Assembly (NCBI GenBank): GCA_012840535.1 | Contig: DULF01000171.1 | Coordinates: forward strand, 1 to 34,555 | DNA length: 34,555 nt | Reading direction: 5' to 3' | From: Clostridiaceae bacterium | Lineage (GTDB): Bacteria; Bacillota; Clostridia; Acetivibrionales; DUMB01 | Part shown: one piece after another, positions 2,002-19,670 of the stretch | How positions within the stretch are numbered: the stretch's first letter is position 1 | How the letters are laid out: every line of letters starts with the position of its first letter | Notes under the pieces: model-generated | Told to the model about the DNA's origin: nothing | Database searches by the model: none | What the model saw: the letters and a program-made list of their open reading frames with translations, nothing else | Made by a program: the position numbers and the translations under genes

Positions 2002-2016
2002 AGGGGGTAGAAAAGC

Positions 2017-2943: not shown

Positions 2944-2956
2944 GTGAGATGGCCAC

Positions 2957-3532: not shown

Positions 3533-3533
3533 C

Positions 3534-3557
3534 AGGGGCGTGATTTATCGCGCCCTT
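3534..3557 (+). other. Hairpin directly after the DUF6470 stop codon
   Basis: AGGGGCGTGA (3534-3543) pairs with TCGCGCCCTT (3548-3557) around a four-base TTTA loop. This gives ten base pairs including two G-U pairs. No T-tract follows, so it is not a canonical intrinsic terminator. It could slow or partly stop transcription, or protect the 3' end of a processed upstream mRNA before fliW. Confidence 0.55.
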
Positions 3558-3591
3558 AACAAGTAAGACAATCAAAAGGGGACAACCCTGA

Positions 3592-3621
3592 CAGAGAACA
3601 GAGAACAGAAGTCAGAGAACA
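3592..3621 (+). repeat. Three copies of CAGAGAACA before fliW
   Basis: CAGAGAACA occurs at 3592-3600, 3599-3607 and 3613-3621, with starts 7 and 14 bases apart, so the copies are in helical-half-turn multiples. The block lies between the post-DUF6470 hairpin and the fliW ribosome site. An AAAAGGGGACA string precedes it at about 3575. No function is assigned. It may be a short tandem expansion or a protein- or RNA-binding leader. Confidence 0.5.
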
Positions 3622-3643
3622 GCAGATGGAGGAGGATGCTAAT

Positions 3644-4141
3644 ATGCAGCTCAACACCAAACACTTTGGCACTATAGAAATAGAAGAAAGCGGGATAATC
3701 GAATTCCCCAACGGGATACCTGGCTTTGAAAGTTCCAAAAACTTTATTATTCTTGGGGACGGCGACGAAAACTCCCCCTTTAAATGGCTTCAAAGCGTAG
3801 ACACCCCTGAACTTGCCTTTGCCGTAGTGGACCCTTTAGCCGTTAAAAAGGATTATGACATAGAAATCAGCGATGATGTGCTCGAGCAACTGGAAATAGA
3901 TTCTCTTGAGGAGGTGCTTGTCTATTCAATAGTTGTCGTACCTGAGGATTTGTCCAAAATAAGCATGAACCTCAAGGCTCCTGTCGTTATCAACACAAGA
4001 AAAAAGAAGGGTGCGCAGGTAGTCCTTGACACTGACAGATACGGTGTGAGACACTATATTTTAGAAGAGCTCCGCAGACAGGAGGAATTGGATAATGCTT
4101 GTTTTGACAAGAAAGAAGAACCAATCCATTGTTATAAATGA
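3644..4141 (+). CDS. fliW: Flagellar assembly factor FliW
   Basis: FliW binds flagellin and, when free, binds and inactivates the translational repressor CsrA, coupling flagellin synthesis to export. The 165-residue product shows the family pattern: [20 protein letters not shown] near the start, then [19 protein letters not shown], and [20 protein letters not shown], with [18 protein letters not shown] near the end. I chose the ATG at 3644 because GGAGGAGGA (3628-3636) lies seven bases upstream. An in-frame ATG at 3626 has no ribosome site in front of it. The C-terminus is longer than in Bacillus FliW (143 residues) and runs 47 bases into csrA in another frame. Function is well supported by sequence and by the csrA neighbour. 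Confidence 0.95.
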
Positions 4142-4337
4142 CAATATTGAAATAACCCTTCTGGATATACAGGGTGACCAGGTACGTATCGGAATAAATG
4201 CACCCAGAAGCGTTTCCGTCCACAGGAAGGAAGTATTTGAGGAAATACAGGCAGAGAACAGGAAAGCTGCAGAGGTAGGGAATGTTTCATTGGGCGAATT
4301 GTTGAAGAAAACGGCAAAAAAAGAAGACAATGAGTGA
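4095..4337 (+). CDS. csrA: Carbon storage/translation regulator CsrA
   Basis: CsrA is a small dimeric RNA-binding protein that recognises GGA in hairpin loops and blocks ribosome binding. The 80-residue product begins [20 protein letters not shown] and contains [20 protein letters not shown]. This holds the R/V/H residues that form the RNA-binding face in the family. The ATG lies inside the 3' end of fliW (47-base overlap), with CAGGAGGA as ribosome site, so its translation is probably coupled to that of its antagonist. The next gene is flagellin, the classical CsrA target in Bacillus, and its leader carries GGA loops. Confidence 0.97.
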
Positions 4338-4366
4338 TTTTTTTTACATATTTTTATATTTTCTTA

Positions 4367-4393
4367 TAAAGTTTTGAATAAAAATATCGATAT
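4367..4393 (+). promoter_or_regulatory. Sigma-D (sigma-28) promoter of flagellin
   Basis: TAAAGTTT at 4367-4374 matches the sigma-28 -35 element. ATCGATAT at 4386-4393 matches the -10 consensus GCCGATAT at six of eight positions. The spacing from TAAA to the -10 octamer is exactly 15 bases, as in Bacillus sigma-D promoters. Transcription would start near 4400 and give a leader of about 120 bases. Confidence 0.8.
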
Positions 4394-4410
4394 ATATAAC
4401 AAGAAGTCAA

Positions 4411-4455
4411 TTAAAGCGTTTCTTTCAGGCCGGCCGGATGAAGGAAATGCTTTAA
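4411..4455 (+). other. Flagellin leader hairpin 1 (17-bp stem, GGCCGGCCGGA loop)
   Basis: Bases 4411-4427 pair with 4439-4455 over 17 base pairs, two of them G-U. The 11-base loop is GGCCGGCCGGA, whose 3' end carries a GGA (4436-4438). It would be the first structure in the flagellin mRNA. It may stabilise the 5' end, or the loop may be an additional CsrA contact. There is no T-tract, so it is not a terminator. Confidence 0.7.
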
Positions 4456-4474
4456 AATACTTCAATATAATTAT

Positions 4475-4492
4475 ATGGGCATGGACGCCCGT
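4475..4492 (+). promoter_or_regulatory. Probable upstream CsrA-binding hairpin in the flagellin leader
   Basis: ATGGGC (4475-4480) pairs with GCCCGT (4487-4492), with one G-U pair. The six-base loop is ATGGAC, so GGA (4483-4485) is presented in a short hairpin loop. This is the known form of a high-affinity CsrA site. It lies about 20 bases 5' of the second GGA loop, compatible with one CsrA dimer bridging both. Assignment to CsrA is inferred from the motif and the adjacent csrA. Confidence 0.7.
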
Positions 4493-4493
4493 C

Positions 4494-4517
4494 AAAAAAA
4501 CATGGAGGTGTTTTTTT
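4494..4517 (+). promoter_or_regulatory. CsrA-type hairpin that holds the flagellin ribosome-binding site
   Basis: AAAAAAACA (4494-4502) pairs perfectly with TGTTTTTTT (4509-4517) over nine base pairs. The loop is TGGAGG, so the flagellin Shine-Dalgarno GGAGG (4504-4508), ten bases before the ATG at 4519, sits in the loop itself. The weak A-U stem could open for ribosomes, while CsrA bound to the GGA would hide the site. This mirrors the two-site repression known for Bacillus hag. Confidence 0.75.
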
Positions 4518-4518
4518 A

Positions 4519-6006
4519 ATGAGAATCAACAATAACATTATGGCAATGAACACTCACAGACAACTGGGAATCAACAACGCGGCCACATCAAAGTCACTTG
4601 AAAAACTGTCTTCAGGCTACAGGATCAACAGGGCGGGAGACGACGCAGCAGGCTTGTCCATCTCTGAAAAAATGAGGGCTCAGATCAGAGGCCTTAACAT
4701 GGCTTCCAGAAACGCTCAGGACGGTATTTCATTAATCCAGACGGCAGAAGGCGCGCTTCAGGAAACCCAGGCAATTCTCCAGAGAATGAGAGAGCTGGCG
4801 GTACAGGCTTCAAACGATACAAATGTGCAAATAGACAGAGAAGCTCTCCAGAGGGAAATCGAGCAGTTAAAGAGTGAAATTGACAGAATAGGAAATGATA
4901 CTGAGTTCAACACCCAGAAATTGCTTAAAGGCGGAAGCACAGGAAGGATTGAGGTAACAAATGTTACGCCTGGAGTAAGCCCTGGACCAACACCTGCAAA
5001 AGCTGCTACTGGAACTTTAGAAGGAATAACATTTACGGCAAAAACTGAAGGTTCCGCTGGTAACAGTATAATGATTGTATTTAGTGATCCAGGCAGCGGC
5101 GGCCAATCACTAAGTATATCGGTAGCTGGTAATACAATTACTGTTAACCTTGCTACAGATGGTAGTTCAAATGTTACCAGCACAGTTGATGATATTGTGT
5201 CAGCAATAAATGGTGATGGAGGAGCATCGGCTCTTGTAACAGCATCTGGATCGGGAACTAGTGCTGTAAATGCTGGAAATGTAACTTTATCAGGTGGTGA
5301 AGATGCTGGAACAACTACCGGAACAGTAGGAGAAATAACATTTAGTATTACAGAAAACTTTGTAGCCGGAGACAAAATAACAATTAACGGTATAACATAT
5401 ACAGCAATAGCGGAAGGTGAGACTGCGGGCGAACGTGAATTTGCTGTTGGAGCAACTGTGGATGCTACTGCAGCAAATCTGTTGGCAGCTATTGAGGATG
5501 CAGATGATGATGTAGATGATGCTGCATCTGATGTATCAGGTAGCGCTATAACTTTAGTACAAGCAGCAGCTACTACAGCGTCGGTTCCTTTTGAACCAGA
5601 AGTGAAAGCTGATTTCAGTGCTATTTTCCAGATTGGAGCAAATGAAAATCAAACAATGGAAATCGAAATCGGGGATATGAGAGTAGAAGCATTAGGCATC
5701 CAGGATATTAGCCTGGCAACAGGAGAAGATGCAAGGGCAGCGATTACTACAATTAATGATGCAATCAACAAAGTTTCCACACAGCGTTCTGAACTGGGTG
5801 CTTTCCAGAACAGGCTCGAGCATACCATCAGGAACCTTGACACATCTGCTGAGAACCTGCAGGCTTCTGAAAGCAGAATACGCGATGTAGATATGGCCAA
5901 GGAAATGATGGAGTTCACCAAGCAGAGTATACTTCAACAGGCTGCGACAGCAATGCTGGCACAGGCTAACCAGGCTCCTCAGGGAATACTTCAGTTATTG
6001 AGATAA
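4519..6006 (+). CDS. hag: Flagellin with an inserted variable domain
   Basis: This is the filament subunit, 495 residues. Residues 1-140 are the conserved D0/D1 half (MRINNNIMAMNTHRQLG, KLSSGYRINRAGDDAAGLSI, RMRELAVQASNDTN). Residues ~365-495 are the returning half, ending with SRIRDVDMAKEMMEFTKQSI and QAPQGILQLLR. Between them, about residues 150-363, lies an extra surface domain rich in Gly, Thr, Ser, Ala and Asp. It has two blocks that start alike, GTLEGITFTAK at ~161 and GTVGEITFSIT at ~268. They recall beta-rich repeats of phage tail and adhesin proteins, which is my impression only. A compact Bacillus flagellin of ~300 residues lacks this part. A sigma-D promoter, CsrA-type leader and terminator surround the gene, so it is a single-gene unit. 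Confidence 0.97.
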   Translation: MRINNNIMAMNTHRQLGINNAATSKSLEKLSSGYRINRAGDDAAGLSISEKMRAQIRGLNMASRNAQDGISLIQTAEGALQETQAILQRMRELAVQASNDTNVQIDREALQREIEQLKSEIDRIGNDTEFNTQKLLKGGSTGRIEVTNVTPGVSPGPTPAKAATGTLEGITFTAKTEGSAGNSIMIVFSDPGSGGQSLSISVAGNTITVNLATDGSSNVTSTVDDIVSAINGDGGASALVTASGSGTSAVNAGNVTLSGGEDAGTTTGTVGEITFSITENFVAGDKITINGITYTAIAEGETAGEREFAVGATVDATAANLLAAIEDADDDVDDAASDVSGSAITLVQAAATTASVPFEPEVKADFSAIFQIGANENQTMEIEIGDMRVEALGIQDISLATGEDARAAITTINDAINKVSTQRSELGAFQNRLEHTIRNLDTSAENLQASESRIRDVDMAKEMMEFTKQSILQQAATAMLAQANQAPQGILQLLR

Positions 6007-6043
6007 TTCAATCACTGGAAGTAAATATACCAACAAAAGAAAA

Positions 6044-6074
6044 GGTCAGGGGAAACTTCCCCTGACCATATTTT
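6044..6074 (+). terminator. Intrinsic terminator after flagellin
   Basis: GGTCAGGGGA (6044-6053) pairs with TCCCCTGACC (6058-6067) over ten perfect base pairs with an AACT loop. The tail ATATTTTG is T-rich. The strong stem just after the flagellin stop would end the abundant monocistronic flagellin transcript. Confidence 0.85.
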
Positions 6075-6124
6075 GTCAAAAATAATATATCCATAAAATT
6101 CAAAAATTGGAGAGGTGATTCCCA

Positions 6125-6673
6125 GTGAAAATAAACAATGTAACAAACGTGAATCTTTATACCGCAAGGGCACCGGAGGGTAAGAAAACTCTTAAGAACC
6201 AGGAAATAAAAGATGAGTATATTCCTTCCCAGCCTCTGGAGCCTGACAAAAAGGCCACATACCAAAAACCGTCTTCAGCTATTGACAGAGCTGCCATGCA
6301 GAGACTAATAGAAGAAAGTGAAAAAGCCTACAGCCAGTTGCGGGAGCTGGTCAGGCAGCTTTTGGAAAAGCAGGGATTGTCCTTTAAATATATAGAAGGC
6401 GGGGAAATAGAAATAGATGAAGAAACCCGTATAAAAGCCCAGCAGATGATAGATGAAGGAGGACCATTGAGCCCTGAGAAGGTCAGCGACAGGATTGTAG
6501 AATTTGCCAAAGCTATATCAGGAGGGGATAAGGAGAAAATAGAAATGTTAAGATCCGCTATAGACAAGGGTTTTAAAGAAGCTGCTGAAGCTTTGGGTGG
6601 AGAACTGCCTGAAATATCATGGGAAACCTATGAGCTTATCAACAAGAAACTTGATGCATGGCTAAATGAGTGA
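6125..6673 (+). CDS. Uncharacterised small protein in the flagellar cluster (DUF5610-like?)
   Basis: The 182-residue product is soluble and charged, with no signal peptide or membrane segment. It starts at a GTG with GGAGAGGTGA 6-7 bases upstream. The first ~55 residues are polar, lysine- and proline-rich and probably disordered. Residues ~58-90 look helical (AAMQRLIEESEKAYSQLREL). The C-terminal half has PEKVSDRIVEFAKAISGGD, then AIDKGFKEAAEALGGELPEI and a final YELINKKLDAW. That C-terminal pattern reminds me of DUF5610, a domain of unknown function, but I cannot verify it. It lies between the flagellin terminator and the sigma-D promoter of flaG, so a flagellar link is inferred from position only. 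Confidence 0.75.
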   Translation: MKINNVTNVNLYTARAPEGKKTLKNQEIKDEYIPSQPLEPDKKATYQKPSSAIDRAAMQRLIEESEKAYSQLRELVRQLLEKQGLSFKYIEGGEIEIDEETRIKAQQMIDEGGPLSPEKVSDRIVEFAKAISGGDKEKIEMLRSAIDKGFKEAAEALGGELPEISWETYELINKKLDAWLNE

Positions 6674-6699
6674 TTGACAGTAACGTTATCAAATTTTGC

Positions 6700-6727
6700 T
6701 AAATGTTTTTATTTATATTTCCGATAA
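6700..6727 (+). promoter_or_regulatory. Sigma-D promoter before flaG-fliD-fliS-flgN
   Basis: TAAATGTT begins at 6700 and TCCGATAA lies at 6720-6727, 16 bases after the TAAA. This matches the sigma-28 pattern TAAA-N15-GCCGATAA closely. It lies 35 bases before the flaG start, with the ribosome site GGAGGG in between. Confidence 0.75.
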
Positions 6728-6761
6728 ATAAATTGAGAAACACTTTCACGGAGGGATTAAT

Positions 6762-7148
6762 ATGCGAGTGGATAGCACGGATGCTATTAGTGTTGCAACT
6801 TTGAAATCTATTGATACCAGTATTTCTGCCTGCGATACAATAGGCGGCGGTACAAATGCAAAAAGTACGATTAATAAAAGTCCATCACAAATGACAGAGT
6901 ATGAAAAAAGGGAGCTCCCTATATCCGAAAGGGCTGTCATAGATGCCATTGAGCGTGCAAACAGGGCAATTTCAATAGCAAACAGGAAATTTGAATTTTC
7001 AATCCACGAAAAAACCAAGCAGATAATGGTCAAAGTTATTAATACGGACACAAATGAAGTGATAAGGGAAATTCCTCCGGAAAAGATACTTGATATAGTT
7101 GCTAGCTTGATGGAATTGGCAGGACTTATTGTTGATGAAAGAAGGTAG
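6762..7148 (+). CDS. flaG: FlaG family protein
   Basis: FlaG proteins are small products next to fliD that influence filament length; their molecular role is poorly defined. The 128-residue product has a disordered N-terminal ~60 residues and a conserved C-terminal FlaG domain: RKFEFSIHEKTKQIMVKVIN, then DTNEVIREIPPEKILDIVA. The EIPPEK motif is the family hallmark. Ribosome site GGAGGG lies seven bases before the ATG. fliD starts five bases after the stop, so the two are coupled. A sigma-D promoter lies directly upstream. Confidence 0.92.
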   Translation: MRVDSTDAISVATLKSIDTSISACDTIGGGTNAKSTINKSPSQMTEYEKRELPISERAVIDAIERANRAISIANRKFEFSIHEKTKQIMVKVINTDTNEVIREIPPEKILDIVASLMELAGLIVDERR

Positions 7149-7153
7149 GTAAT

Positions 7154-9076
7154 ATGAATATAAGCAGTATTTATAACTCAGCATATAGCACAAAAATGCG
7201 CATGTTCGGGTTAAGCGGAAGCGGTCTTGACCCTGATATGTTAGTGTCTCAGCTGATGCAAGCAGAGAGAGTTCCTCTTGACAGGCTTTATCAGAAGAGA
7301 CAGCTTGCGGAATGGAGAAGGGACGAATACAGGAATATCATAAACCTCTTAAGAGGGTTTAAAGACGAATTTTTCGATATTTTAAAACCAGCTACCTATA
7401 TGCTGTCCCAGTCTGCTTATAAAAAATTCACGTGCACTTCTTCTGACAGCGCGGTTGTAACAGCTACTGCCAATGCCGATGCCGTAGCGGGCAGCCATAC
7501 AATTTTTGTGCATGAGATAGCCACTGCAGCCATAAAAGTGAGCGAGGAAGGAATTACCAAACCTGTTGCCGGAACTTCTGCCCCCGATTTGGATAGGGTA
7601 AGAGGCAAGAGTTTTTCCATGAGCATTGACGGAGTTACAAAAACAATTGCTGTGAGCGATGATATAACCGATATGGCGGATTTGATTGAAGACATCCAGA
7701 AATCAATAGATGCAGCGTTTGGAAAGGTAAACGGAGAAAGCAAGGTTGTAGTAGGTCTGGAAGATGGAAAATTGTCTTTTATTTCCAATACCGCAAAGGG
7801 GGTTAATAAAATAATCATAAGTTCCGTTCCAGGTGAAACCGGAGATGCGCTCAACGGCCTGGGCTTTGAAACGGCCGTAAGCAACAGGCTTAACACATGG
7901 GATACACTTGAGACTGTGGCTCAAAAGATGAAAAACGGTTTTACCTTTAATGGTGAAGGGAAAATATTATTAACTATAAACGGTAAAGATTTCGAGTTTG
8001 ACAAAAGTGAAACCCTGAGCAGCATGATGAGCAGAATAAACAGTAATCCTGATGCCGGGGTAATCATGCAATATGATGAAATTTCCGACACAATAAAGTT
8101 TACTGCCAAACAGCCTGGAGCAGGTGTTACTATAGAACTGGAAGAGGAAGGCAGTACATTTATTGCTTCGCTTAATTTGTCCGAAACTGCCGGCAGAGAC
8201 GCGATAGTAACAATTGACGGTACTCAGACGGTTTTAAGAGGAAGTAATACTTTTACCATAAATGGAGTGACTTACAACATTTTAAAGAAAAGTGAAACTG
8301 AACAGACAATTACAATAAAGCAGGATACAGAGGCAGTCTTGGAGACTATCAAGAAATTTGTTGAAAAATACAACGAAGTTATCAAAGTAATAAACGATAA
8401 GCTGGCTGAAAAGTATGATAGAAAATATCCTCCTCTTACAGCAGCTCAAAAGAAGGAAATGAAGGAAGATGAAATAAAACTGTGGGAGGAAAAGGCAAAG
8501 ACAGGTCTTTTGAGGAATGACCCCCTGCTTGAAAACATTGTTTATGGTATGAGAAAAGCGCTTACTGACAGTATCAAGGGTGTGCCTGTAAATCTTTCAA
8601 GTATAGGAATTACGACCGGTTCTTATGAAGAAAAAGGAAAGCTCATTATTGATGAATTTAAATTAAGGGAAGCAATTGAAAATAATCCAGATGCAGTAAT
8701 GGATCTTTTCTGCAAAAGACCCAGTGTGGAGGATAATATCAACCTTACTAGTGAGCAGCGGGAAATCAGGTATAATGAGGGTGGCTTGGCATACAGGCTG
8801 TTTGATATTATTGAAGACAATATCAGGACAAGAAGGGATAACAATAACAAAAAAGGGCTTCTCCTGGAAAAGGCGGGTATGGCCGGAGACCTTTCAGAAA
8901 TTAAAAATTCCATATATGAAGAAATAGAAGGGTATAATGAAGAGATACGAAAGCTTGAAATGAAGCTTTATGAAAGAGAGACGTCCTATTATGCAAAGTT
9001 TGCGAAGCTTGAGACACTGCTTTCACGGATGATGACCCAATCAAGCTATCTTATGATGCAGTTTATGCAGGGATGA
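7154..9076 (+). CDS. fliD: Flagellar filament cap protein FliD
   Basis: FliD (HAP2) caps the growing filament and folds incoming flagellin. The 640-residue product has the FliD N-terminal domain (GSGLDPDMLVSQLMQAERVP, then RLYQKRQLAEWRRDEYRNII) at about residues 15-115. Variable middle domains contain FTINGVTYNI and ITIKQDTEAVLETIKKFVEK near residue 390. The C-terminal domain has LRNDPLLENIVYGMRKAL, SSIGITTGSYEEKGKL and a coiled-coil end with YYAKFAKLETLLSRMMTQSS. Length is at the upper end of the usual range. It follows flaG closely and precedes its export partner fliS. Confidence 0.96.
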   Translation: MNISSIYNSAYSTKMRMFGLSGSGLDPDMLVSQLMQAERVPLDRLYQKRQLAEWRRDEYRNIINLLRGFKDEFFDILKPATYMLSQSAYKKFTCTSSDSAVVTATANADAVAGSHTIFVHEIATAAIKVSEEGITKPVAGTSAPDLDRVRGKSFSMSIDGVTKTIAVSDDITDMADLIEDIQKSIDAAFGKVNGESKVVVGLEDGKLSFISNTAKGVNKIIISSVPGETGDALNGLGFETAVSNRLNTWDTLETVAQKMKNGFTFNGEGKILLTINGKDFEFDKSETLSSMMSRINSNPDAGVIMQYDEISDTIKFTAKQPGAGVTIELEEEGSTFIASLNLSETAGRDAIVTIDGTQTVLRGSNTFTINGVTYNILKKSETEQTITIKQDTEAVLETIKKFVEKYNEVIKVINDKLAEKYDRKYPPLTAAQKKEMKEDEIKLWEEKAKTGLLRNDPLLENIVYGMRKALTDSIKGVPVNLSSIGITTGSYEEKGKLIIDEFKLREAIENNPDAVMDLFCKRPSVEDNINLTSEQREIRYNEGGLAYRLFDIIEDNIRTRRDNNNKKGLLLEKAGMAGDLSEIKNSIYEEIEGYNEEIRKLEMKLYERETSYYAKFAKLETLLSRMMTQSSYLMMQFMQG

Positions 9077-9151
9077 TGAATTTATTGTAAATAAGTAAGT
9101 ATTAAATTGTAAAATAAAATATGCAGAAAAATATCAAATGGAGGAATGCAA

Positions 9152-9562
9152 ATGGCACTCAGCAAAGCATACGACCGGTATAAGGAAAACTCAGTTTACA
9201 CATCAACCCCTGAAGAGCTCACATTTATGCTCTACAACGGCATGGTAAGGTTTATACTGCAGGCTCAGCTCGCATTAGAAGAAAAGGATGTACAAAAGGC
9301 AAACGTCAGTATTATAAGGGCTCAGGATATTGTTTTATATCTACAAAACACTCTTGATATGAAGTATGATATTTCCAAAAATCTGGCTTCAATTTACGAT
9401 TACTTGTATAGACGGCTTATTGATGCGAATATCCACAAGGATAAGGAAATTCTCAATGAAGTGCTTGGCTTTGCGAAAGACCTTCGGGACACATGGTCAC
9501 AGGCAATGAAGCTGGCCAAGCAGCAGGGCAAGGCCCATCAAACTCCGGCGGATGGCCAGTAG
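9152..9562 (+). CDS. fliS: Flagellin export chaperone FliS
   Basis: FliS binds the C-terminus of newly made flagellin and prevents premature polymerisation; in Bacillus it also acts with FliW and CsrA. The 136-residue product starts MALSKAYDRYKENSVYTSTP and has ELTFMLYNGMVRFILQAQLA, the family core. IYDYLYRRLIDANIHKDKEI follows in the last helix. I chose the ATG at 9152, since GGAGG (9140-9144) lies seven bases upstream; the ATG at 9146 is only one base from it. It follows fliD by 75 bases. Confidence 0.95.
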   Translation: MALSKAYDRYKENSVYTSTPEELTFMLYNGMVRFILQAQLALEEKDVQKANVSIIRAQDIVLYLQNTLDMKYDISKNLASIYDYLYRRLIDANIHKDKEILNEVLGFAKDLRDTWSQAMKLAKQQGKAHQTPADGQ

Positions 9563-9600
9563 GTTTCATGGCCGGTAAATTTTTTATAAAGGAGCTAATC

Positions 9601-10080
9601 ATGGAACCGGAAGCGTATATAAAGAGACTGCAGGAAATATCGGCTGAAAAGTTCAATTTGGTTGAGAAAATTCTGAATTTAACAAAAGCCCAGACTCAGT
9701 CAATTGCGGCTGAAGACTTGAATGAACTTGAAAACCTGGTTTCTGGTAAGCAGAAGCTAATTGATGAAATCAGCAAGCTTGACGATGAATTCAGTGATTG
9801 TTTTGAGGAACTTAAACGCAAGCTTAACGTGAAAAACCTTGATGAATTGAAAGGCGTAAATATTCCTGGCGCAGACAGGCTCCAGGGTATAATCGGCAGC
9901 ATAATGGAAACTGTAAAAGAAATCTGCGAAATTGAAAAACAGAACGAGGCAGGAGTAAGAAAACTAATGAATGCGGTTGGAGAAGAAATCAGGAAAATTA
10001 ATCAGGCCAAAAAAGCAAATGCTGCATACATGTCAAAGCCTGTAATCTCTCCTTCGTATTTTATTGATAAGAAAAAATAA
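9601..10080 (+). CDS. flgN: FlgN-like flagellar export chaperone
   Basis: The 159-residue, almost fully helical product fits the FlgN family, which escorts FlgK and FlgL to the export gate. Visible features are an N-terminal coiled coil (LQEISAEKFNLVEKILNLTK), ENLVSGKQKLIDEISKLDDE, and a C-terminal helix VRKLMNAVGEEIRKINQAKK. It ends in a polar tail SPSYFIDKKK. The ATG at 9601 is preceded by AAGGAGCT. Longer in-frame starts inside fliS lack such a site. Helical proteins of this size are weakly conserved, so position after fliS strengthens the call. It is the last gene of the flagellar run here; the next gene is on the opposite strand. Confidence 0.78.
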   Translation: MEPEAYIKRLQEISAEKFNLVEKILNLTKAQTQSIAAEDLNELENLVSGKQKLIDEISKLDDEFSDCFEELKRKLNVKNLDELKGVNIPGADRLQGIIGSIMETVKEICEIEKQNEAGVRKLMNAVGEEIRKINQAKKANAAYMSKPVISPSYFIDKKK

Positions 10081-11416: not shown

Positions 11417-13201
11417 ATGGAAAAAGGCAGTTTACTGGAAGGCAAATACAGGATATTGGGTACGCTTGGCCAGGGTGGGATGGGAAAGGTATACCTGGCT
11501 GAAAATATTAAGCTGGGTACGTTGTGGGCTATAAAGCATTTGAAAAAAAAGCCCGGCTCGAGCTGCAATCTTTACATTGAGCCTAATATACTTAAAAAAC
11601 TGAATCACCCGGCCCTTCCTAGAATATTTGATATTTTTGAGGATGCTGAGAACGTTTATATAGTTGTTGACTACATTGAAGGGGTTTCATTAGACAAGAA
11701 GCTTGAAGAAGTCGGATGCTTTCCCGAAGAAGTCGTTCTTGAATGGGCTGCGCAGCTTTGTGATGTGTTAATGTATTTACATAGCATAAAGCCAAACCCC
11801 ATTATTTACCGTGATATGAAACCGGCAAATATAATTCTTACGGAGGGCGGGCGCCTTAAGTTAATTGATTTTGGCATTGCAAGGGAGTATAAAAGCGGCG
11901 CTGACAGTGATACGATTTGCATTGGCACAAGAGGCTATGCTGCTCCCGAACAGTACGGGGCAGGTCAGACCAGTTTTGCAAGTGATATTTACAGCCTGGG
12001 AGTAACACTATATCACCTCCTGACCGGAAAGAGCCCAAATGAAGCCCCTTACGAGATTAAGCCTGTGAGATGGTTTAACAGTAATTTATCAAGTGAAATT
12101 GAGGACGTTATTTTAAAATGCACAAGACTGGATCCTTCTGAGAGATATCAATCGGTTCAGGAACTGATAGTCGAAATTGAGCGCATCAAAAAAAGCCGGG
12201 CCAATGATGTTGGGCATGAAGATTTTATCCGCAAAGATGCCGGTGTTTACCGTCACAGGGAAAGAGACCTTTGTGCCAGCTTTAAGAAGCTTGTTCTGGC
12301 TGTATGGGACAATGCGGAGTTTGGATGCGAGCTTGCATATATGGCTGCAAAGTTAACCGGCTTGAGTGTTTTGCTGATTGACCTGGACCTTCTGTCACCT
12401 AAGGCGGATTTATATCTGAATATCAGAAAGTATCCTGACAGGATTATAAATGAAAGCATACTGGACAGTTCAGGGTTCAATTCCTCAGGCTTAAATATAG
12501 TTATGGATTCAATTGAAAAAAATTTTATCACGCATGAACTACTTTTAAAAGCATCCGTGAGGCGAAGGGAATTAAAAAACCTATATATCCTAACAGGCAA
12601 CTATAACCTGGAGAATTATGAGTACTACAGCAATGAAAGTCTCGTGAAACTTATAGAAAAGTGCTATCAGCAATTTGATGTTGTAATATTGCTGGTGAAT
12701 AAGTCAATATATGATTCGTATACGGTGATTTCACTGGCTAAATCTGACTATAATATCGTGCCTATTAGAGCGGATATTGACGTGTTGAGGGAGTTCAACA
12801 ACTATCTGGCTTTTTTGAAGGACAAGCAGAAGATACCTCTGGAGAAGACCAAGTTTGTAGCTTTTGAATATAACCCTGCTACTAACCTGGCTTTGGGGAC
12901 TTTAAGGGAAACAACAGAGAAAAACTTCATAGGGTGTATAAGTTACAGCGCAAAAAGAGCCAGGTGCAGAAATCTTAGAATCCCTTACGTGAAACGTATG
13001 GAAAGAAACATCGTTCTAAATTACATAAATATTCTAAACGCTTTTTGCATTGTTCCGAAACCAGGATTGTATGACAGGTTAAACAACATATTACGTGAAC
13101 TATATTTAATTTGGAGGTCTGTGAAAAAAGCAGCGGCTAAAATAACCCGGACCCGATTACGGGAATTTACGCGTCCTGAGGGGGAGAAAATATGCCCGTA
13201 G
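11417..13201 (+). CDS. Ser/Thr protein kinase fused to a TadZ/CpaE-like ATPase-fold domain
   Basis: The 594-residue product has two domains. Residues 1-255 are a Hanks-type kinase: glycine loop GQGGMGKVY (18-26), Lys40 in AIKHLKK, YRDMKPANI with Asp133, DFG at 151-153, APE at 176-178. All catalytic residues are present. No PASTA repeats or membrane segment follow. Residues ~290-550 resemble the MinD/ParA-like domain of TadZ/CpaE. VLLIDLDLLSPKADLYL (318-334) fits the motif after the P-loop, and DVVILLVNKS (421-430) fits Walker B. The P-loop itself is lost (WDNAEFGCELAYMAAK, no GKT), as in many TadZ proteins that act as polar localisers. Its stop overlaps tadA by 10 bases. I chose the ATG at 11417, four bases after GGGGGGT; a GTG at 11393 is possible. 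The TadZ call is by motif and context. Confidence 0.87.
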   Translation: MEKGSLLEGKYRILGTLGQGGMGKVYLAENIKLGTLWAIKHLKKKPGSSCNLYIEPNILKKLNHPALPRIFDIFEDAENVYIVVDYIEGVSLDKKLEEVGCFPEEVVLEWAAQLCDVLMYLHSIKPNPIIYRDMKPANIILTEGGRLKLIDFGIAREYKSGADSDTICIGTRGYAAPEQYGAGQTSFASDIYSLGVTLYHLLTGKSPNEAPYEIKPVRWFNSNLSSEIEDVILKCTRLDPSERYQSVQELIVEIERIKKSRANDVGHEDFIRKDAGVYRHRERDLCASFKKLVLAVWDNAEFGCELAYMAAKLTGLSVLLIDLDLLSPKADLYLNIRKYPDRIINESILDSSGFNSSGLNIVMDSIEKNFITHELLLKASVRRRELKNLYILTGNYNLENYEYYSNESLVKLIEKCYQQFDVVILLVNKSIYDSYTVISLAKSDYNIVPIRADIDVLREFNNYLAFLKDKQKIPLEKTKFVAFEYNPATNLALGTLRETTEKNFIGCISYSAKRARCRNLRIPYVKRMERNIVLNYINILNAFCIVPKPGLYDRLNNILRELYLIWRSVKKAAAKITRTRLREFTRPEGEKICP

Positions 13202-14484
13202 TAGCTTCCCATCATAAATTTTTGCTGAATGAGGATATAAACAGGGAATATGAGCGCAGCTTAAGCGATATAAATACACTTGTTTCGGATATTACCTTTG
13301 ATATACTTAAGGATTCTCCGGAACTGGTAGCTGACGTGGCATCCGGAATTACAGACCGTTCCGTACTTGAAACGGCAATAATGAAAGTTATTGACAGGTA
13401 TAAATACCATTTTGGTTTATACCGAGAAGAACTAATGAGAAAAGTATTTGATTTTATGTTCGGATACGGTGAGCTGCAAAAATACATAGAGGACGAAGAG
13501 ATTACCGATATTGACGGTACCAAGTTTAATGAGTTTGTAATAAAAAGAAAAGGAGTTCGCTATAAAATTCCTGTTAACTTTGGGAACGAGAAAATATTCG
13601 ATACCTACTGCAAGTTAATTGCTATACGAAACGGCGGTATTTTAAATGACAACGACAGCCATTGCAGGGTTACTGATGAAAAAAACAGGCTAAGGATAAA
13701 TGTTTCTGTTAAACCCAGGAATATATCAAGCCCTGCCATCAGTATCAGAAAACACAGAAAAGTAAGTTATACCCTCGAGGAGCTTGTGGAATTGGAAATG
13801 ATGGATGAAAATATTTATGCATTTATCAAGAAACTGGCGGCTACCGACGCAACAGTGCTTTTTTGCGGGAAAGGCGCTGCCGGAAAGACCACTCTCCTGA
13901 GGGCTTTTGTAAATTCACTTCCAGAGATGGAGAGGGTTTTGATTGTGGAGTCAGATGCTGAAATTTTCCCCGATAAGCCTTATTGCATAGAACAAAGGAT
14001 AAAGAAAGAAAACGAGGGGGGAAGGACGGTAACCTTGAGAGACCTTGTAAGGGATGGCTTGACCATGTCCCTTGACAGCTATTGTGTCGGGGAAATTGTA
14101 GGGGATGAAGCATGGGAATTTATAAAGGCTGCTTTTACAGGACACAGGGGAATGGCTACGACCCACGCTGAAAGCGCCGAGGACGCGTTTGCAAGGCTTC
14201 TTACCCTCAGCAAGGGCGCAAATACAGGAGAAAGTGAAAAGACTGTGAAGGAGATGATGGCAGGCAGTATCGATGTGATTTTCCACCTCGACAGTTTTAA
14301 AGTGGTGGATGTATTGGAGGTGATTGGCTACAGGGAGGACAGGGACCAATTTGAATATAACCGGCTGTTTTCATTTGAAATAATTAACGAAGACGAAAAC
14401 GGTTTCCTAGAGGGAAGATTTGTCAAGGTCGGGGATATTGGGAAAAGGCTAAGGAACAAGTTTTTAAGGAGGAGGCAGATCTGA
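13192..14484 (+). CDS. tadA: TadA/CpaF-type pilus assembly ATPase
   Basis: This 430-residue protein belongs to the type II/IV secretion ATPases that power Tad/Flp pilus assembly as hexamers on the cytoplasmic membrane. Walker A is GKGAAGKTT at 226-234. MSLDSYCVGEIVGDEA near 295-310 fits the Walker B region, and GHRGMATTHAES gives the conserved His box. The usual N-terminal domain is present, with helices to ~90 and YGELQKYIEDEEITDIDGT. The stretch at 111-190, which in CpaF reads VNGP..E...G, is more divergent. The ATG overlaps the kinase-TadZ stop by 10 bases, and GAGGGGG is the ribosome site. Translation is thus coupled to the kinase fusion. Confidence 0.93.
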   Translation: MPVVASHHKFLLNEDINREYERSLSDINTLVSDITFDILKDSPELVADVASGITDRSVLETAIMKVIDRYKYHFGLYREELMRKVFDFMFGYGELQKYIEDEEITDIDGTKFNEFVIKRKGVRYKIPVNFGNEKIFDTYCKLIAIRNGGILNDNDSHCRVTDEKNRLRINVSVKPRNISSPAISIRKHRKVSYTLEELVELEMMDENIYAFIKKLAATDATVLFCGKGAAGKTTLLRAFVNSLPEMERVLIVESDAEIFPDKPYCIEQRIKKENEGGRTVTLRDLVRDGLTMSLDSYCVGEIVGDEAWEFIKAAFTGHRGMATTHAESAEDAFARLLTLSKGANTGESEKTVKEMMAGSIDVIFHLDSFKVVDVLEVIGYREDRDQFEYNRLFSFEIINEDENGFLEGRFVKVGDIGKRLRNKFLRRRQI

Positions 14485-14490
14485 ATATAC

Positions 14491-15444
14491 ATGATATTGG
14501 TCATTAATTCAATACTTCTTGTAGGTGTTACAATTGCGCTTGCCTGTCTTATTGCAAATGAGATAAATCTTGAAAGAATTATCCACCTGGGCTTGAAAGG
14601 TATAAACCATGAACTTGACAGGAGGAGGCTGAGAAAAGAAATAAAAAAATATACAATGGCTGTGAAAGTAAAGATGAGCCTTCCTGAGAAAATTGAGCTG
14701 TATCTTATTGACAAATCAAACATCAGGCATTATTTACCGTTTTTTAACTTTTACTTTTTATGCTTCATTATTGTTTCAATCTTTGTATTGACATTTGGAT
14801 ATGTATTTAAAATATTGCTTTTTGTTCCTTCCGCCGCGGCCGTTTGTTTCCTGTTCTCACTTATCCCTGTATTTATCCTGGATATTATGGGGAGGTATAA
14901 TTCTGAAAAGATACGAAGGAAACTTGCCGATTTTATTTCGGTCCTTAACAGGTGGTGCGCAGTAAAAGAGGACATCTTTTATGCTTTTGAAAAGTCCGTC
15001 GAATCGGGAATCGGGGAGCCCTTAAGAACATTCATCAAAGACATGGTAATACAGGTAAATTGCGGAATAGAACCTTTAGAAGCGCTGGATATACTCCAGA
15101 TGAAAGTGGATAATGCGCAATTTAAAGATTTTCTTATTAATATTAAGCAGAACATTAAACACAGAGGGGATATCAGAAAGCTTTTGTCAAATCTGGAAGG
15201 GCAGTTTTACAAAATAGAGGAAGAGTACAACAGGAGGAAAATTTCCACATATAAGGACCGTTTGCTTATATATTTCATAATGTTCAGCGTCCTGTTTATC
15301 GGATATTTCTTCCTGAAGTCCACTCCAAAAATAGAAGATTTTTACCTTAATACCCTTGCAGGAAAATCGCTTTTAATGGTTTTTTGCTTTCTTTATGCTT
15401 GTGGATTTTATATGACGCTAAAGATTACAAGCTTTAAACATTAA
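14491..15444 (+). CDS. tadB: TadB-like pilus platform protein (type II secretion F family)
   Basis: TadB and TadC form the inner-membrane platform of Tad pili. The 317-residue product has membrane segments near residues 1-22, 85-130 (two helices), 258-276 and 287-308, with a cytoplasmic F-domain at about 145-255. That domain includes FYAFEKSVESGIGEPLRTFI, CGIEPLEALDILQMKV and DFLINIKQNIKHRGDIRKLL. The start follows the tadA stop by six bases. The nearest AGGAGGAGG is ~17 bases upstream, further than usual, so the start is somewhat uncertain, but a stop codon blocks any longer version. The order tadA-tadB-tadC is the standard Tad arrangement. Confidence 0.87.
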   Translation: MILVINSILLVGVTIALACLIANEINLERIIHLGLKGINHELDRRRLRKEIKKYTMAVKVKMSLPEKIELYLIDKSNIRHYLPFFNFYFLCFIIVSIFVLTFGYVFKILLFVPSAAAVCFLFSLIPVFILDIMGRYNSEKIRRKLADFISVLNRWCAVKEDIFYAFEKSVESGIGEPLRTFIKDMVIQVNCGIEPLEALDILQMKVDNAQFKDFLINIKQNIKHRGDIRKLLSNLEGQFYKIEEEYNRRKISTYKDRLLIYFIMFSVLFIGYFFLKSTPKIEDFYLNTLAGKSLLMVFCFLYACGFYMTLKITSFKH

Positions 15445-15496: not shown

Positions 15497-16360
15497 TTGC
15501 TGGTAGCTGCAGTCTTAAATTTTATTATTGCGGCGCAGATGGCGGGAAAAATCTTTGTCTACATGGACAGGCACCTGATTGAAGCCTTGGGGATGAGGGC
15601 TGCAGAGAAATCCGTTTATAAAAGGTGTAAAAACCTTGTGAAACAATCAATTGAGAGATATGAAAAAAAGGAAAAACTTCACGGCATTTATATTAAAGCC
15701 AAAGCTAAAATGAAAAAAACCGGTTACCGTGGACAATATGCGGCAGCCGTCTATTTATTCGTAAAGTACATAGTAACTGCAGCCTTGTTCCTTGTCGCCC
15801 TTGTCATAAATTTTCCGTCTTTTGCTCAGCCCTTGATAATTGCCGCGCTTAATGTGATTGTTGTTGAGCTGGTGCTGGCTTATAAAAAAAGAAAGTTTAA
15901 TCTGAAGTTTCAGAAGAATGCATACAAGATTTATAAGTACCTGCATAACCAGATATCATCCGGGGTGAAGGTTACCGATGCGATAAAAACCGTTTATGAA
16001 GTGATTGACGACAGGGACCTGCGGGGAGTCCTGGTTGAACTGGCGGCAAGGTACGGACTGACCCTTGATATAGATGCTTCTCTTGAAGAATTCAAGGCAA
16101 ATTTTGACAACCATGAAGCTGAGACCTTATGTGTAGCGTTGAAACAGGGGGTGATAACCGGGGATAACAAGGACCTTTTGGAACGCCAGGAGGATGTCAT
16201 GTTCAAAAAGTACTTCAATTACATTCAGGCGGAGACTGACAGCTGCAAGGCAAGAAGCGTTTTGGCGGCAGCAATGTTTGTTGCCATAATTGTCATAATG
16301 ATAACGGTTCCGCTTCTTAATGACGTTACGGATGCAATTCAAAGCATCTTTTCAAATTGA
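15497..16360 (+). CDS. tadC: TadC-like pilus platform protein (start uncertain)
   Basis: This is the second F-family platform protein. From the TTG at 15497 it has 287 residues, with membrane segments at about 1-15, 90-125 (two) and 262-280. The F-domain has KYLHNQISSGVKVTDAIKTV and ETLCVALKQGVITGDNKDLL. The start is odd. AGGGAGG (15445-15451) points to an ATG at 15459 with good spacing, but that ATG reads only Met-Gly-stop. The true frame is open upstream of 15497 without ATG or GTG. One extra base in the GGG at 15461-15463 would make that ATG open the gene as MGIIQAIGIHTYFLLVAAV. So there may be a one-base deletion here, real or technical, or use of an unusual start codon. Confidence 0.82.
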   Translation: MLVAAVLNFIIAAQMAGKIFVYMDRHLIEALGMRAAEKSVYKRCKNLVKQSIERYEKKEKLHGIYIKAKAKMKKTGYRGQYAAAVYLFVKYIVTAALFLVALVINFPSFAQPLIIAALNVIVVELVLAYKKRKFNLKFQKNAYKIYKYLHNQISSGVKVTDAIKTVYEVIDDRDLRGVLVELAARYGLTLDIDASLEEFKANFDNHEAETLCVALKQGVITGDNKDLLERQEDVMFKKYFNYIQAETDSCKARSVLAAAMFVAIIVIMITVPLLNDVTDAIQSIFSN

Positions 16361-16407: not shown

Positions 16408-16641
16408 ATGAAAAAAAAGAAGAATTTCATTGGCACAATTCTTTTAAGAGGAAGAATATTGCTAAACAGGGAAGAAGGCTTTGGAATGAACGAACTGCTT
16501 GGTGTAGCTGCAGCATTGATTCTTGCTGCTTTTATAGTAATACCCGGCTTAAAGGAACTTGCACGAAGCGTTATGGATATGCTGGAAAGCTGGTGGGGAA
16601 AGATTGTTAATGAAGCATTCCAGTGGCCAGGCAGCCAATGA
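16408..16641 (+). CDS. flp: Flp-like type IVb prepilin
   Basis: The 77-residue product carries a type IV prepilin signal. A basic 24-residue leader ends EEG, followed by FGMNE, so cleavage after Gly24 would leave Phe at +1 and Glu at +5. A hydrophobic helix follows (LLGVAAALILAAFIVIPGL) and then a short amphipathic tail ending FQWPGSQ. The mature peptide would have 53 residues, typical of Flp pilins. AAGGAGGT lies ten bases before the ATG. It sits after the platform genes, consistent with being the main pilus subunit or a pseudopilin. No prepilin peptidase gene is in the window, so the processing enzyme must be elsewhere. Confidence 0.82.
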   Translation: MKKKKNFIGTILLRGRILLNREEGFGMNELLGVAAALILAAFIVIPGLKELARSVMDMLESWWGKIVNEAFQWPGSQ

Positions 16642-16669: not shown

Positions 16670-17047
16670 ATGCCGGCAAAAGCTGTTGTATCGGGAATTA
16701 TTCTTATCATGATAGTTGTTTTCCTTGTTTTTACCGTGGAATTCTTTATCCCCCTTTCCGTTAAATCAGACATGAATATGGTTTGCAGAAGCGCCTTGTT
16801 AAAAATGGAGATGGAAGGCGGACTGAGCAGCGGGAACAGGTCGGATTTAATAGAGAAATTGAGTGAAATAGGGCTGTCAAATATTACTGTTGAAGGGACT
16901 GAGCAGGCAAAGCAGGGTGAAAGGATAAGGCTCCGGGTTGAAGCGGATTTCGTATATAATAAGCTGACAGGTCTTTTTTCACGCACTGATGTGACTCAAC
17001 GGATGATTTATCAAAAGACTGCCATAGTAAGAAAGGTTGTAAACTGA
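16670..17047 (+). CDS. TadE-like minor pilin or pseudopilin (DUF4320-like?)
   Basis: The 125-residue protein has one N-terminal membrane helix (residues ~5-27, VVSGIILIMIVVFLVFTVEF) and a ~95-residue extracytoplasmic domain. That domain has a helix (RSALLKMEMEGGLSSGN) and a strand-rich end (ERIRLRVEADFVYNKLTG). Single-pass proteins of this layout next to flp are usually TadE/TadF-like. The sequence also recalls DUF4320 proteins of clostridial Tad loci, which I cannot verify. There is no clear G-x-x-x-x-E cleavage motif. CGGAGGT precedes the ATG. The stop overlaps the next start by one base (TGATG), so the two are coupled. Confidence 0.72.
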   Translation: MPAKAVVSGIILIMIVVFLVFTVEFFIPLSVKSDMNMVCRSALLKMEMEGGLSSGNRSDLIEKLSEIGLSNITVEGTEQAKQGERIRLRVEADFVYNKLTGLFSRTDVTQRMIYQKTAIVRKVVN

Positions 17048-17592
17048 TGAAATGTCCAGGAAGACTGAGCTTGAAAAACTGCTGTAAAGGGAGTTCAGTT
17101 GTAGATGTTGTAATATGGGCGGCTATAATTGTTTTTGTAATAATGCCGGTATTTGCAGCAGTCATTGAAAAATTCATCTTGCTTAATAAAATCCAGGTAA
17201 TTAAAGACGCCGTAGACATTACGAATATTTCGACTTATAATTCAATCGTAGCTGAATACCTTGGAAAAACAATAGTAGAATTCGACAGGGATAAGGTTTA
17301 CAACATATATAGAGAGCTGCTCTCAGAGAATTTGAACCTTAATTGGGATCTTTCGCCGAGGGATGGATCAATAGCGAAAGGTAATGTCAGGATAGAATCA
17401 ATAGTCTTATATACAAGCCAATTTCCCGCGGTATGTCCCGAAGGTTTGGAAATTAAGCGTCCTGCTGTGCACAGCGTAGTAACGGTGCCTATTAAGCCGG
17501 CACTGTTCAGTGAGATGATATTAAACATGTTGGGGAAACAAAATATAGAACTTAAGATACATGTGGATTCGGATATACCCCTGGACAAATGA
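17047..17592 (+). CDS. TadE-like pilus protein
   Basis: The 181-residue product has a short basic N-terminus with two Cys (NCCKGSS), then GSSVVDVVIWAAIIVFVIMP. This resembles the TadE start, where a Glu or Asp follows the glycine and one helix crosses the membrane (about 19-42). The rest is extracytoplasmic and includes IVAEYLGKTIVEFDRDKVYN and, near residue 130, PAVCPEGLEIKRPAVHSVVT. Its ATG shares an A with the previous stop. It is likely a minor pilus subunit or assembly factor. The call rests on topology and context more than on strong motif conservation. Confidence 0.72.
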   Translation: MKCPGRLSLKNCCKGSSVVDVVIWAAIIVFVIMPVFAAVIEKFILLNKIQVIKDAVDITNISTYNSIVAEYLGKTIVEFDRDKVYNIYRELLSENLNLNWDLSPRDGSIAKGNVRIESIVLYTSQFPAVCPEGLEIKRPAVHSVVTVPIKPALFSEMILNMLGKQNIELKIHVDSDIPLDK

Positions 17593-17633
17593 CAGCATGT
17601 TATGGATAAAAGCAATTGAAGGGGATGGTTTTA

Positions 17634-18290
17634 ATGAGGAAGCTGAGATTCATTTTTTTAACTATAATTATTGCTTTTGTACTTCTTGCAGCTGAAATCA
17701 TACTTATAAGGAGCGTGTCAGAATATGAGCCTAAGTTAAGCGTCGTGTTTGCCAGGACAAAAATACCCGAGGGAACGCTCATAAAATCCGGCATGCTTGA
17801 AGAGAAGAAAATTAGCGCCGGCGCGGTCCATAAACAGTCGGTGAGGAACCCGGACGAGATAATAGGAAAGGTAACAAGAGTAGAAATTGAAGAAGGGGAA
17901 ATGATATTAAATACAAAACTGATTGAATCAGGCGAGATGGAAGAACTAAGTTCCATAGATGAAAAAAGCCGGCTGTTTACCGTAGAATTCAACCCTGACC
18001 AGGCAAATGGCTGGAGGCTTAAAGCAGGCCAATATGTTGATATAATATATATACCTAAGGGTGTATATGAGCTGCCGGGAGGCACGGGCATGTCAGGCAT
18101 AAAGAGGATAAGAAATGTCAAAATAGCTGCAATTATCGACAATAACGGAAACCTGGTAAGGGACCTGAACAGGACATCTCTTCCCAGGTATATTTCATTC
18201 GAAGTCAACGACAGCCTGGATGAATTTCTGGCATATGCCAAAGATAATGGCAGGCTGGAAGTCTCAGTAATACCATTTAAAGATTACTAA
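17634..18290 (+). CDS. cpaB: CpaB/RcpC-like SAF-domain pilus assembly protein
   Basis: CpaB/RcpC proteins are membrane-anchored periplasmic or surface parts of Tad systems with a SAF domain related to antifreeze and sialic acid synthase folds. The 218-residue product has a membrane anchor at about 5-26. The SAF segment follows at ~35-95: VVFARTKIPEGTLIKSGML, then ARG-free EIIGKVTRVEIEEGEMIL. A beta-rich C-terminal half has KAGQYVDIIYIPKGVYELPG. I chose the ATG at 17634, since AAGGGGA lies eight bases upstream; nearer in-frame starts overlap that site. It closes the structural part of the Tad operon. Confidence 0.85.
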   Translation: MRKLRFIFLTIIIAFVLLAAEIILIRSVSEYEPKLSVVFARTKIPEGTLIKSGMLEEKKISAGAVHKQSVRNPDEIIGKVTRVEIEEGEMILNTKLIESGEMEELSSIDEKSRLFTVEFNPDQANGWRLKAGQYVDIIYIPKGVYELPGGTGMSGIKRIRNVKIAAIIDNNGNLVRDLNRTSLPRYISFEVNDSLDEFLAYAKDNGRLEVSVIPFKDY

Positions 18291-18306: not shown

Positions 18307-18540
18307 ATGGCGGATGTAAAGTTTGAAATCAAAAAGAGTTATGGAGTCATTGGCGAGGGAACAAAAGGATGGAAGAAGGAGGTGAATCTGGTAAGCTGGA
18401 ACGGCAGAAAGCCAAAGCTGGATATAAGAGACTGGGATGAAAACCACGAAAGGATGGGAAGAGGAATAACCCTGGACAGAGAGGAAGCGGAAGCGTTAAG
18501 GGAAGTGCTGCAGAATATTGACCTTAGTGAGATTGAATAA
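18307..18540 (+). CDS. ydbC: YdbC/PC4 family single-stranded DNA-binding protein
   Basis: This 77-residue protein matches the bacterial YdbC-like branch of the PC4 (p15) coactivator fold, which binds single-stranded DNA or RNA as a dimer. Nearly the whole length is diagnostic: KFEIKKSYGVIGEGTKGWKK, then EVNLVSWNGRKPKLDIRDWD and HERMGRGITLDREEAEALRE. ATGGAGGT precedes the start, 16 bases after cpaB, so it is read with the Tad operon or from its 3' end. Its role there is unknown; it may simply be a neighbouring housekeeping gene. Confidence 0.93.
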   Translation: MADVKFEIKKSYGVIGEGTKGWKKEVNLVSWNGRKPKLDIRDWDENHERMGRGITLDREEAEALREVLQNIDLSEIE

Positions 18541-18749: not shown

Positions 18750-19670
18750 ATGAAGGATGTTGTTTTGCCGAGAGCCTGGGAAAGCGTGCTTAGCTCTTCC
18801 GGCTTCATGCCTGTTATTGTTAAAACCATAGAGAGATATCATGACCCAAAATGGACCATGGAACCTAATATTCATGATTTTTTTGAAATGGTTTACATGA
18901 AAAGGGGAAAGATGATATTCGAAATATCCGGGCATCCTGTTGATATGGGACCTAATGATATAATAATAATAAAACCTAACCAGTACCATAAATTTATAGT
19001 GAAATCAGAACCGGGATGTGAGTTTATTGTACTGAGTTTTAAATTTGAGAATAAAATAAATGGAGAGTATTCCGAGGTTTCACTTGAGGATTTTCTTAAC
19101 TTCGTCAGCAACAAGGAGACTGGGCCTTTTATTACTCTTAAAGTATGCCAGAAAAACGAGATAATTACTTTGCTGGACAGGATATTGAAGGAAAGGGAGA
19201 GTAACGAAGTTGACAGCGAGTTCTTAAACTACCTTTTAATACTTGAGTTGTTTGTATATATCTCAAGAGCCCTTAAAATGGAATGGGAGAACAGTATAAA
19301 GGACCATAGCCCAAAGCTTAAAGAACTGATACAAATTGCTGTAAATTTTATAAACAACAATTATGAGAGGGATATTTCGCTAAAGGATATAGCAAAATTT
19401 GTATTTTTAAGTCCCAGTTATTTCACCAGGGCTTTTAAGGAGGAAATGAACATAAGCCCCATAAGCTATCTTTTAAAAGTTAGGATTGAAAGGGCTAAAG
19501 AGCTTCTTGCGGAAACAGACCACAAAGTAAGCGATATTGCCCTCAGTGTCGGATTTTCAAATCAGCAGCGGTTTAATGAAATTTTTAAAAAACACGTCAA
19601 GACAACACCTCTGCAGTACAGAAGACAGGTCACGGAAAAGAAAAGGCAAGGCTTTAATTCTTCTTTGTAA
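18750..19670 (+). CDS. AraC family transcriptional regulator
   Basis: The 306-residue product has an N-terminal cupin-like sensor (IHDFFEMVYMKRGKMIFEIS, then GPNDIIIIKPNQYHKF) at about 35-110. The C-terminal AraC double helix-turn-helix covers about 200-297. It has NNNYERDISLKDIAKFVFLS, PSYFTRAFKEEMNISPISYL, and the second helix with VSDIALSVGFSNQQRFNEIF. Such regulators usually respond to a sugar or related ligand. It stands between the Tad operon and leuCDB and points towards leuC, with ~217 bases between them. Its target is not evident. GAAGGGAG lies before the ATG. Confidence 0.9.
   Translation: MKDVVLPRAWESVLSSSGFMPVIVKTIERYHDPKWTMEPNIHDFFEMVYMKRGKMIFEISGHPVDMGPNDIIIIKPNQYHKFIVKSEPGCEFIVLSFKFENKINGEYSEVSLEDFLNFVSNKETGPFITLKVCQKNEIITLLDRILKERESNEVDSEFLNYLLILELFVYISRALKMEWENSIKDHSPKLKELIQIAVNFINNNYERDISLKDIAKFVFLSPSYFTRAFKEEMNISPISYLLKVRIERAKELLAETDHKVSDIALSVGFSNQQRFNEIFKKHVKTTPLQYRRQVTEKKRQGFNSSL

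Follow-up and report, generated by a model that had tools for sequence, protein, structure and literature searches.

A Hanks-type kinase fused to a TadZ-derived domain heads a Tad pilus operon in Clostridia

We analyzed a stretch of 34,555 nucleotides from a Clostridiaceae bacterium (contig DULF01000171.1), hereafter the window, in which a Tad (type IVc) pilus operon is headed by a gene joining a Hanks-type Ser/Thr kinase to a TadZ-derived domain. TadZ/CpaE normally carries an atypical receiver domain at its N terminus (PMC13170226, after the E. rectale TadZ structure), and what appears to be new here is a recurrent exchange of this receiver for a kinase. The position of the fusion directly 5' of the pilus motor gene suggests that phosphorylation may act at the base of the pilus machine. 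We give an even chance to the reading that this is a TadZ-type motor-hub protein with a kinase in place of the receiver, phosphorylation governing the timing or the site of motor assembly or activity. An earlier note on this DNA had proposed that the fusion was novel; indeed, no description of a kinase-TadZ fusion was found in the literature searched, subscription papers lying outside its reach.

The fusion gene and its operon

The fusion open reading frame (11417-13201, forward strand) encodes 594 amino acids, and the G-rich stretch ggggggtaaaATG lies just 5' of its start ATG. Residues 1 to 262 (11417..12202, forward strand; core 11 to 246) form a Hanks-type Ser/Thr kinase domain (Pfam Pkinase, E 8e-51) with the motifs LGQGGMGKV, WAIK (K40), YRDMKPAN (D133), DFG (D151), and APE (176 to 178). 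YRD stands where HRD is expected, and the lysine, the catalytic aspartate, DFG, and APE are all in place, as the earlier note had read them; judged by these motifs, the kinase is apparently active. Its top NCBIfam match was the Stk1-family model (193 bits). The kinase domain is common to this protein and the Bacillota Hanks kinases of the PrkC/Stk1 type, but the window protein has neither their PASTA domains nor their transmembrane anchor and carries the TadZ-derived domain instead. PADLOC matches of the kinase (PD-T4-6 and mad6) reflected generic kinase similarity and were not taken as a sign of a defence role.

The end of the fusion gene overlaps the ATG of tadA (13192) by exactly 10 bases (ATGCCCGTAG), and the operon runs, on the forward strand throughout, in the order kinase-TadZ, tadA, tadB, tadC, pilin, pseudopilins, and cpaB. 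The overlap and the headship of a Tad-type operon, both put forward in the earlier note, were thus recovered from sequence and synteny. The TadA/CpaF-like motor ATPase (13192..14484) scored 139 bits with TIGR03819, under the model's cut-off, matched T2SSE at 3e-25, and was 57 to 74% identical to its relatives in the order. It is followed by TadB-like (14491..15444; PF00482, 1e-5) and TadC-like (15497..16360; PF00482, 1e-6) platform proteins of the T2SSF type, both in conserved synteny. The pilin-like protein of 77 amino acids (16408..16641) has a class III-type signal, EEG/FGMNELLGVAAALILAAFIVIP, as read from the sequence; several relatives have the same prepilin-like motif (EEG/FGMNELLGVAAALI in the window) here, among them L073, L075-L078, L081, L083, and L137. 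Two pseudopilin-like proteins come next, one (16670..17047) with a sub-threshold match to DUF4320 (E 0.0018) and 43 to 55% identity in relatives, the other (17047..17592) with a hydrophobic N-terminal helix, no Pfam match, and 43 to 57% identity in relatives. A syntenic CpaB/RcpC-like SAF-domain protein (17616..18290; SAF, 9e-7; TIGR03177, 63 bits against a cut-off of 71) precedes a small PC4-like protein of 77 amino acids that closes the operon (18307..18540; PF02229, 3e-12), which is 60 to 75% identical to proteins encoded beside cpaB in relatives. An AraC-type regulator gene (18750-19670) also tends to come after the PC4-like gene. The locus therefore holds tadA, two platform genes, a pilin, and cpaB, several of which score under curated cut-offs.

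No prepilin peptidase was found among the open reading frames of the operon, and three Peptidase_A24 genes lie on other contigs of the genome. An outer-membrane secretin is not expected in a monoderm. Neither an FHA gene nor a phosphatase gene is among the identified operon genes, and the fusion thus has no evident phospho-reader next to it.

Identity of the C-terminal domain

Residues 285 to 594 (12269..13198, forward strand) form a domain with a MinD fold (about 285 to 560) and a basic tail; the C terminus has a strong amphipathic stretch and a net charge of +6, variable among relatives. Scanned alone against Pfam, this part gave only a sub-threshold AAA_31 match (E 9e-4). The P-loop position reads VWDNAEFGCELAY, the same as in relatives, and the domain thus has no GKT or GKS; across an alignment of 18 orthologous domains the position is WDNAEFGCELAY, and the strand after it keeps a MinD-like LIDLDLLSPKAD. 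The Walker A' strand IDLDLLSPKAD is retained in the window. At the sequence level, the deviant Walker A P-loop of TadZ is absent from the domain.

The profile of the 18 domains was compared by hhalign with receiver-TadZ proteins that have an intact P-loop, a receiver-like N terminus, and genes beside tadA, and was related to them at 99.1% (E 1e-18) over residues 20 to 281 of 315. AlphaFold (AF2) gave an unusable model from the whole protein as a single sequence (pLDDT 38) and a model with pLDDT 68 and pTM 0.67 from the window sequence and five relatives (six rows). The latter matched PDB 3fkq, the TadZ of Eubacterium rectale, with Z 19.3 and an rmsd of 3.0 over 220 aligned residues; 3fkq was found by this fold comparison and not by PDB sequence searches with the TadZ domain alone. 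MinD structures scored Z 20 to 21, the ParA-family structure 3ea0 22.8, and FleN 18.8, and with scores this close to that of TadZ, structure alone cannot single out TadZ. Hence the fold identifies the domain as MinD-like, and its assignment to TadZ comes from sequence kinship and its place beside tadA.

Taking profile kinship, predicted structure, and tadA adjacency together, we conclude that the C-terminal domain is TadZ-derived. The MinD/ParA-like, TadZ-like domain with a lost P-loop described in the earlier note was thereby borne out, the profile search that it had called for returning TadZ and the structure prediction matching TadZ along with other MinD-like proteins. The domain shares with TadZ/CpaE the MinD fold, a gene beside tadA, and the Walker A' strand, and its amphipathic or basic C-terminal tail, which varies among relatives, may be a further common feature. 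It differs in that an ATP-binding, deviant Walker A is retained in the TadZ of E. rectale (3fkq; PMC13170226), whereas the P-loop in the window is eroded, and in that the N-terminal partner is a kinase where TadZ/CpaE has an atypical receiver.

Recurrence and exchange of the N-terminal domain

TadZ-domain matches were found in 30 of 60 near genomes. The operon order of the window is repeated at 16 further loci of the order (L073-L088), and 14 of these, from seven families, carry intact kinase-TadZ fusions; in L077 the TadZ part is interrupted by a stop, and the contig of L082 ends before the kinase. Within the class, 43 of 391 genomes matched, and kinase fusions occur beyond the order in f28, f29, f32, f38, f40, f55, f81, and f96, several directly 5' of tadA. 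Among 398 genomes spread over the phylum, only two matches at E 1e-8 were found besides the window's own. The genome survey proposed in the earlier note thus located kinase-TadZ beside tadA in many genera, and neither of the findings that the note had named against itself, a C-terminal domain of another family or a single copy away from Tad genes, came true.

The catalytic lysine and aspartate are kept in every fusion inspected apart from truncated sequences, and about 35 fusions, like that of the window, have intact kinase motifs. In related, non-saturated pairs, dN/dS was about 0.06 to 0.09 for the kinase domain and about 0.05 to 0.12 for the TadZ domain; purifying selection acts on both. 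A weakened glycine loop or an altered DFG (DFE, DFD, DFA) was noted in L110 and L111 (f81), L112-L116 (f55), and L106 and L108 (f96), and these fusions are possibly heading towards pseudokinases.

The earlier note had held that TadZ/CpaE stands alone. This did not stand: a receiver is usual at the N terminus (PMC13170226), and f37 relatives keep a receiver-like domain there. In the window protein the atypical receiver is missing and Pkinase is found instead. In f37 and f93, an eroded-P-loop TadZ directly 5' of tadA has a receiver-like N terminus of about 130 to 180 residues; f63 and f16 have the receiver-like form with an intact P-loop, and in f37, f63, and f16 the receiver-like domain sits at the gene position of the fusion. 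The f37 N terminus is receiver-like in our judgement, from its sequence pattern and from a profile comparison that related it moderately to other TadZ receivers (90.9%, E 1e-6); it had no Pfam match and no profile kinship to a canonical CpaE receiver. On the tree, eroded-P-loop rows, both kinase and receiver, split from intact-P-loop rows with support of 97/97, which indicates that P-loop loss does not depend on the presence of the kinase. The kinase or receiver label requires about four changes (3 to 5 over bootstraps), a single change being found in 0% of bootstrap trees, and the kinase form as a single clade is not rejected by the AU test (p 0.069). Elsewhere in the window genome, contig C143 holds a second Tad-like locus (L131, 1-7990), which encodes TadA, a TadZ bearing a receiver (PF21194), and a DUF6382-FHA protein.

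Two operon types share this kind of head gene. Type A is the arrangement of the window, in which adjacency of head gene and tadA is conserved. Type B joins the head gene to a CpaB-like protein, a stand-alone MinD-like protein whose loop is of the KGMGQT type, a longer T2SE ATPase, two platform proteins, and pilins; the pseudo-ATPase TadZ and a distinct MinD-like protein thus occur together. Type B is kinase-headed in f5, f7, f11, f32, f38, and f81 and on MAG contigs L038 and L047, and in f4 its head gene is receiver-like; L089, L090, L091, L138, L139, and L141, like L038 and L047, are loci of this type headed by kinase-TadZ. On L038 (5028-17459), the kinase-headed type B operon lies back to back with a TadA-TadB-TadC set that has a canonical CpaE, made up of a receiver and a P-loop MinD domain. 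Between the two types, the kinases are about 64% identical, compared with 34 to 38% for TadZ and about 24% for TadA.

The region 5' of the window locus (406-10080) contains flgK, a flagellin-family gene, fliW, flagellin, flaG, fliD, fliS, and flgN. Across many genera of the order, at least 13 loci have the head gene just 3' of fliD-fliS-flgN, or of contig-end remnants of them, and both operon types are represented; fliD, fliS, or flgN stands just 5' of it in most order loci whose contig extends that far. Flagellar neighbors were seen in the window and in L073-L077, L080, L081, L083-L085, L088, L091, and L141, and none was seen outside the order. It is as if one genomic site alternated between two pilus machines.

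Possible roles of the kinase

In Caulobacter, CpaE dimers have been modelled as a ring round the CpaF hexamer, with REC domains possibly linking the dimers; CpaE has a C-terminal amphipathic membrane helix and relocates to the base of CpaF once a pilus is present (PMC13170226). By analogy, docking through the TadZ part may place the fusion at the membrane next to the TadA hexamer, in the way modelled for CpaE around CpaF, which would hold the kinase in a ring at the motor and raise its concentration at the base of the pilus. Neighboring kinases could then activate each other in trans by proximity, and their targets could be TadA, TadZ, or the kinases themselves. In place of contact between receivers, phosphorylation would time or place the assembly or running of the motor, and since the P-loop is lost, it may also replace TadZ ATP binding as the control. 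For the same reason, the ATP-dependent dimerization of TadZ may not apply, and docking may differ. This motor-hub reading draws support from the intact kinase motifs, the TadZ profile and fold match, the f37 receiver homologs, the operon synteny, and the low dN/dS, and the missing phospho-reader beside the fusion speaks against it.

The kinase could instead serve as an output, reporting to the cell, e.g., to flagellar genes, whether the pilus is assembled, loaded, or retracting, and thereby switch cells between motility and attachment upon surface contact. We consider this unlikely. The position 3' of fliD-fliS-flgN speaks for it, as does the higher identity of the kinase between operon types, as if its partners lay outside the pilus machine; however, synteny alone does not demonstrate regulation, the flagellar link was not seen outside the order, and the kinase and TadZ trees, although they differ between operon types in the expected direction, are not significantly incongruent (AU p 0.204). 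A mainly structural kinase domain, a dimerizing scaffold in the receiver's place with incidental catalysis, seems improbable as well. The receiver-like domains that it replaces are themselves degenerate and of the non-phosphorylated type, so the N-terminal slot may need only a protein contact surface, and the weakened glycine loops or DFG motifs of f96, f81, and f55 would fit. Against this, the lysine, the catalytic and metal-binding aspartates, and APE persist in essentially all fusions at low dN/dS, and pure scaffolds usually lose the catalytic residues of the kinase.

A FleN/FlhG-like flagellar regulator in the place of TadZ, with pilus genes as chance neighbors, is very improbable as the identity of the C-terminal domain: FleN fits the model nearly as well as TadZ and flagellar genes adjoin the locus, but the domain has profile kinship to receiver-TadZ beside tadA, the fusion gene overlaps tadA and accompanies it well beyond flagellar surroundings, and the P-loop of the domain is lost, whereas FleN/FlhG is a MinD-like ATPase with an intact one. 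The likelihood of an artefact or chance fusion in a single genome is negligible: in the order, 14 more loci with this operon hold an intact fusion, others are found across the class, and recurrence at more than 30 loci excludes both coincidence and a join made in assembly.

Related arrangements are known. In Gram-positive bacteria, T7SS subtypes c to j bring kinases, phosphatases, and FHA parts into secretion or filament clusters, T7SSg and T7SSh adjoin Tad loci, and TsfV joins a TadZ-like receiver to an AAA+ protein (PMC11217815). The kinases of those loci are separate proteins, whereas that of the window is fused to TadZ, and a kinase-TadZ fusion was not found in the passages of that work consulted; the word kinase is absent from the main text of PMC6668835, on type IV filaments. 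Closer to the window, L045 (585-10894) combines a tadA-B-C locus with a kinase of similar general kind and a DUF6382-FHA protein, but its kinase of 307 amino acids stands alone at the far end of the locus, as an unfused counterpart of the window arrangement.

A broader reading, possible though doubtful, is that the N-terminal slot of TadZ would be a swappable signaling port, taking, in Clostridia, a receiver-like domain or an active Hanks kinase in two operon types, and that the kinase beside late flagellar genes would couple pilus state to motility by phosphorylation. REC and kinase could also be unrelated solutions rather than functional equivalents. Control of the Tad pilus motor in Gram-positive bacteria is poorly understood, and a kinase within the putative motor-contacting hub protein would offer a direct handle on it, as one point mutation would test the role of phosphorylation in pilus assembly. 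Furthermore, receiver or kinase on one TadZ scaffold would provide a natural domain-swap series for the function of the TadZ N terminus.
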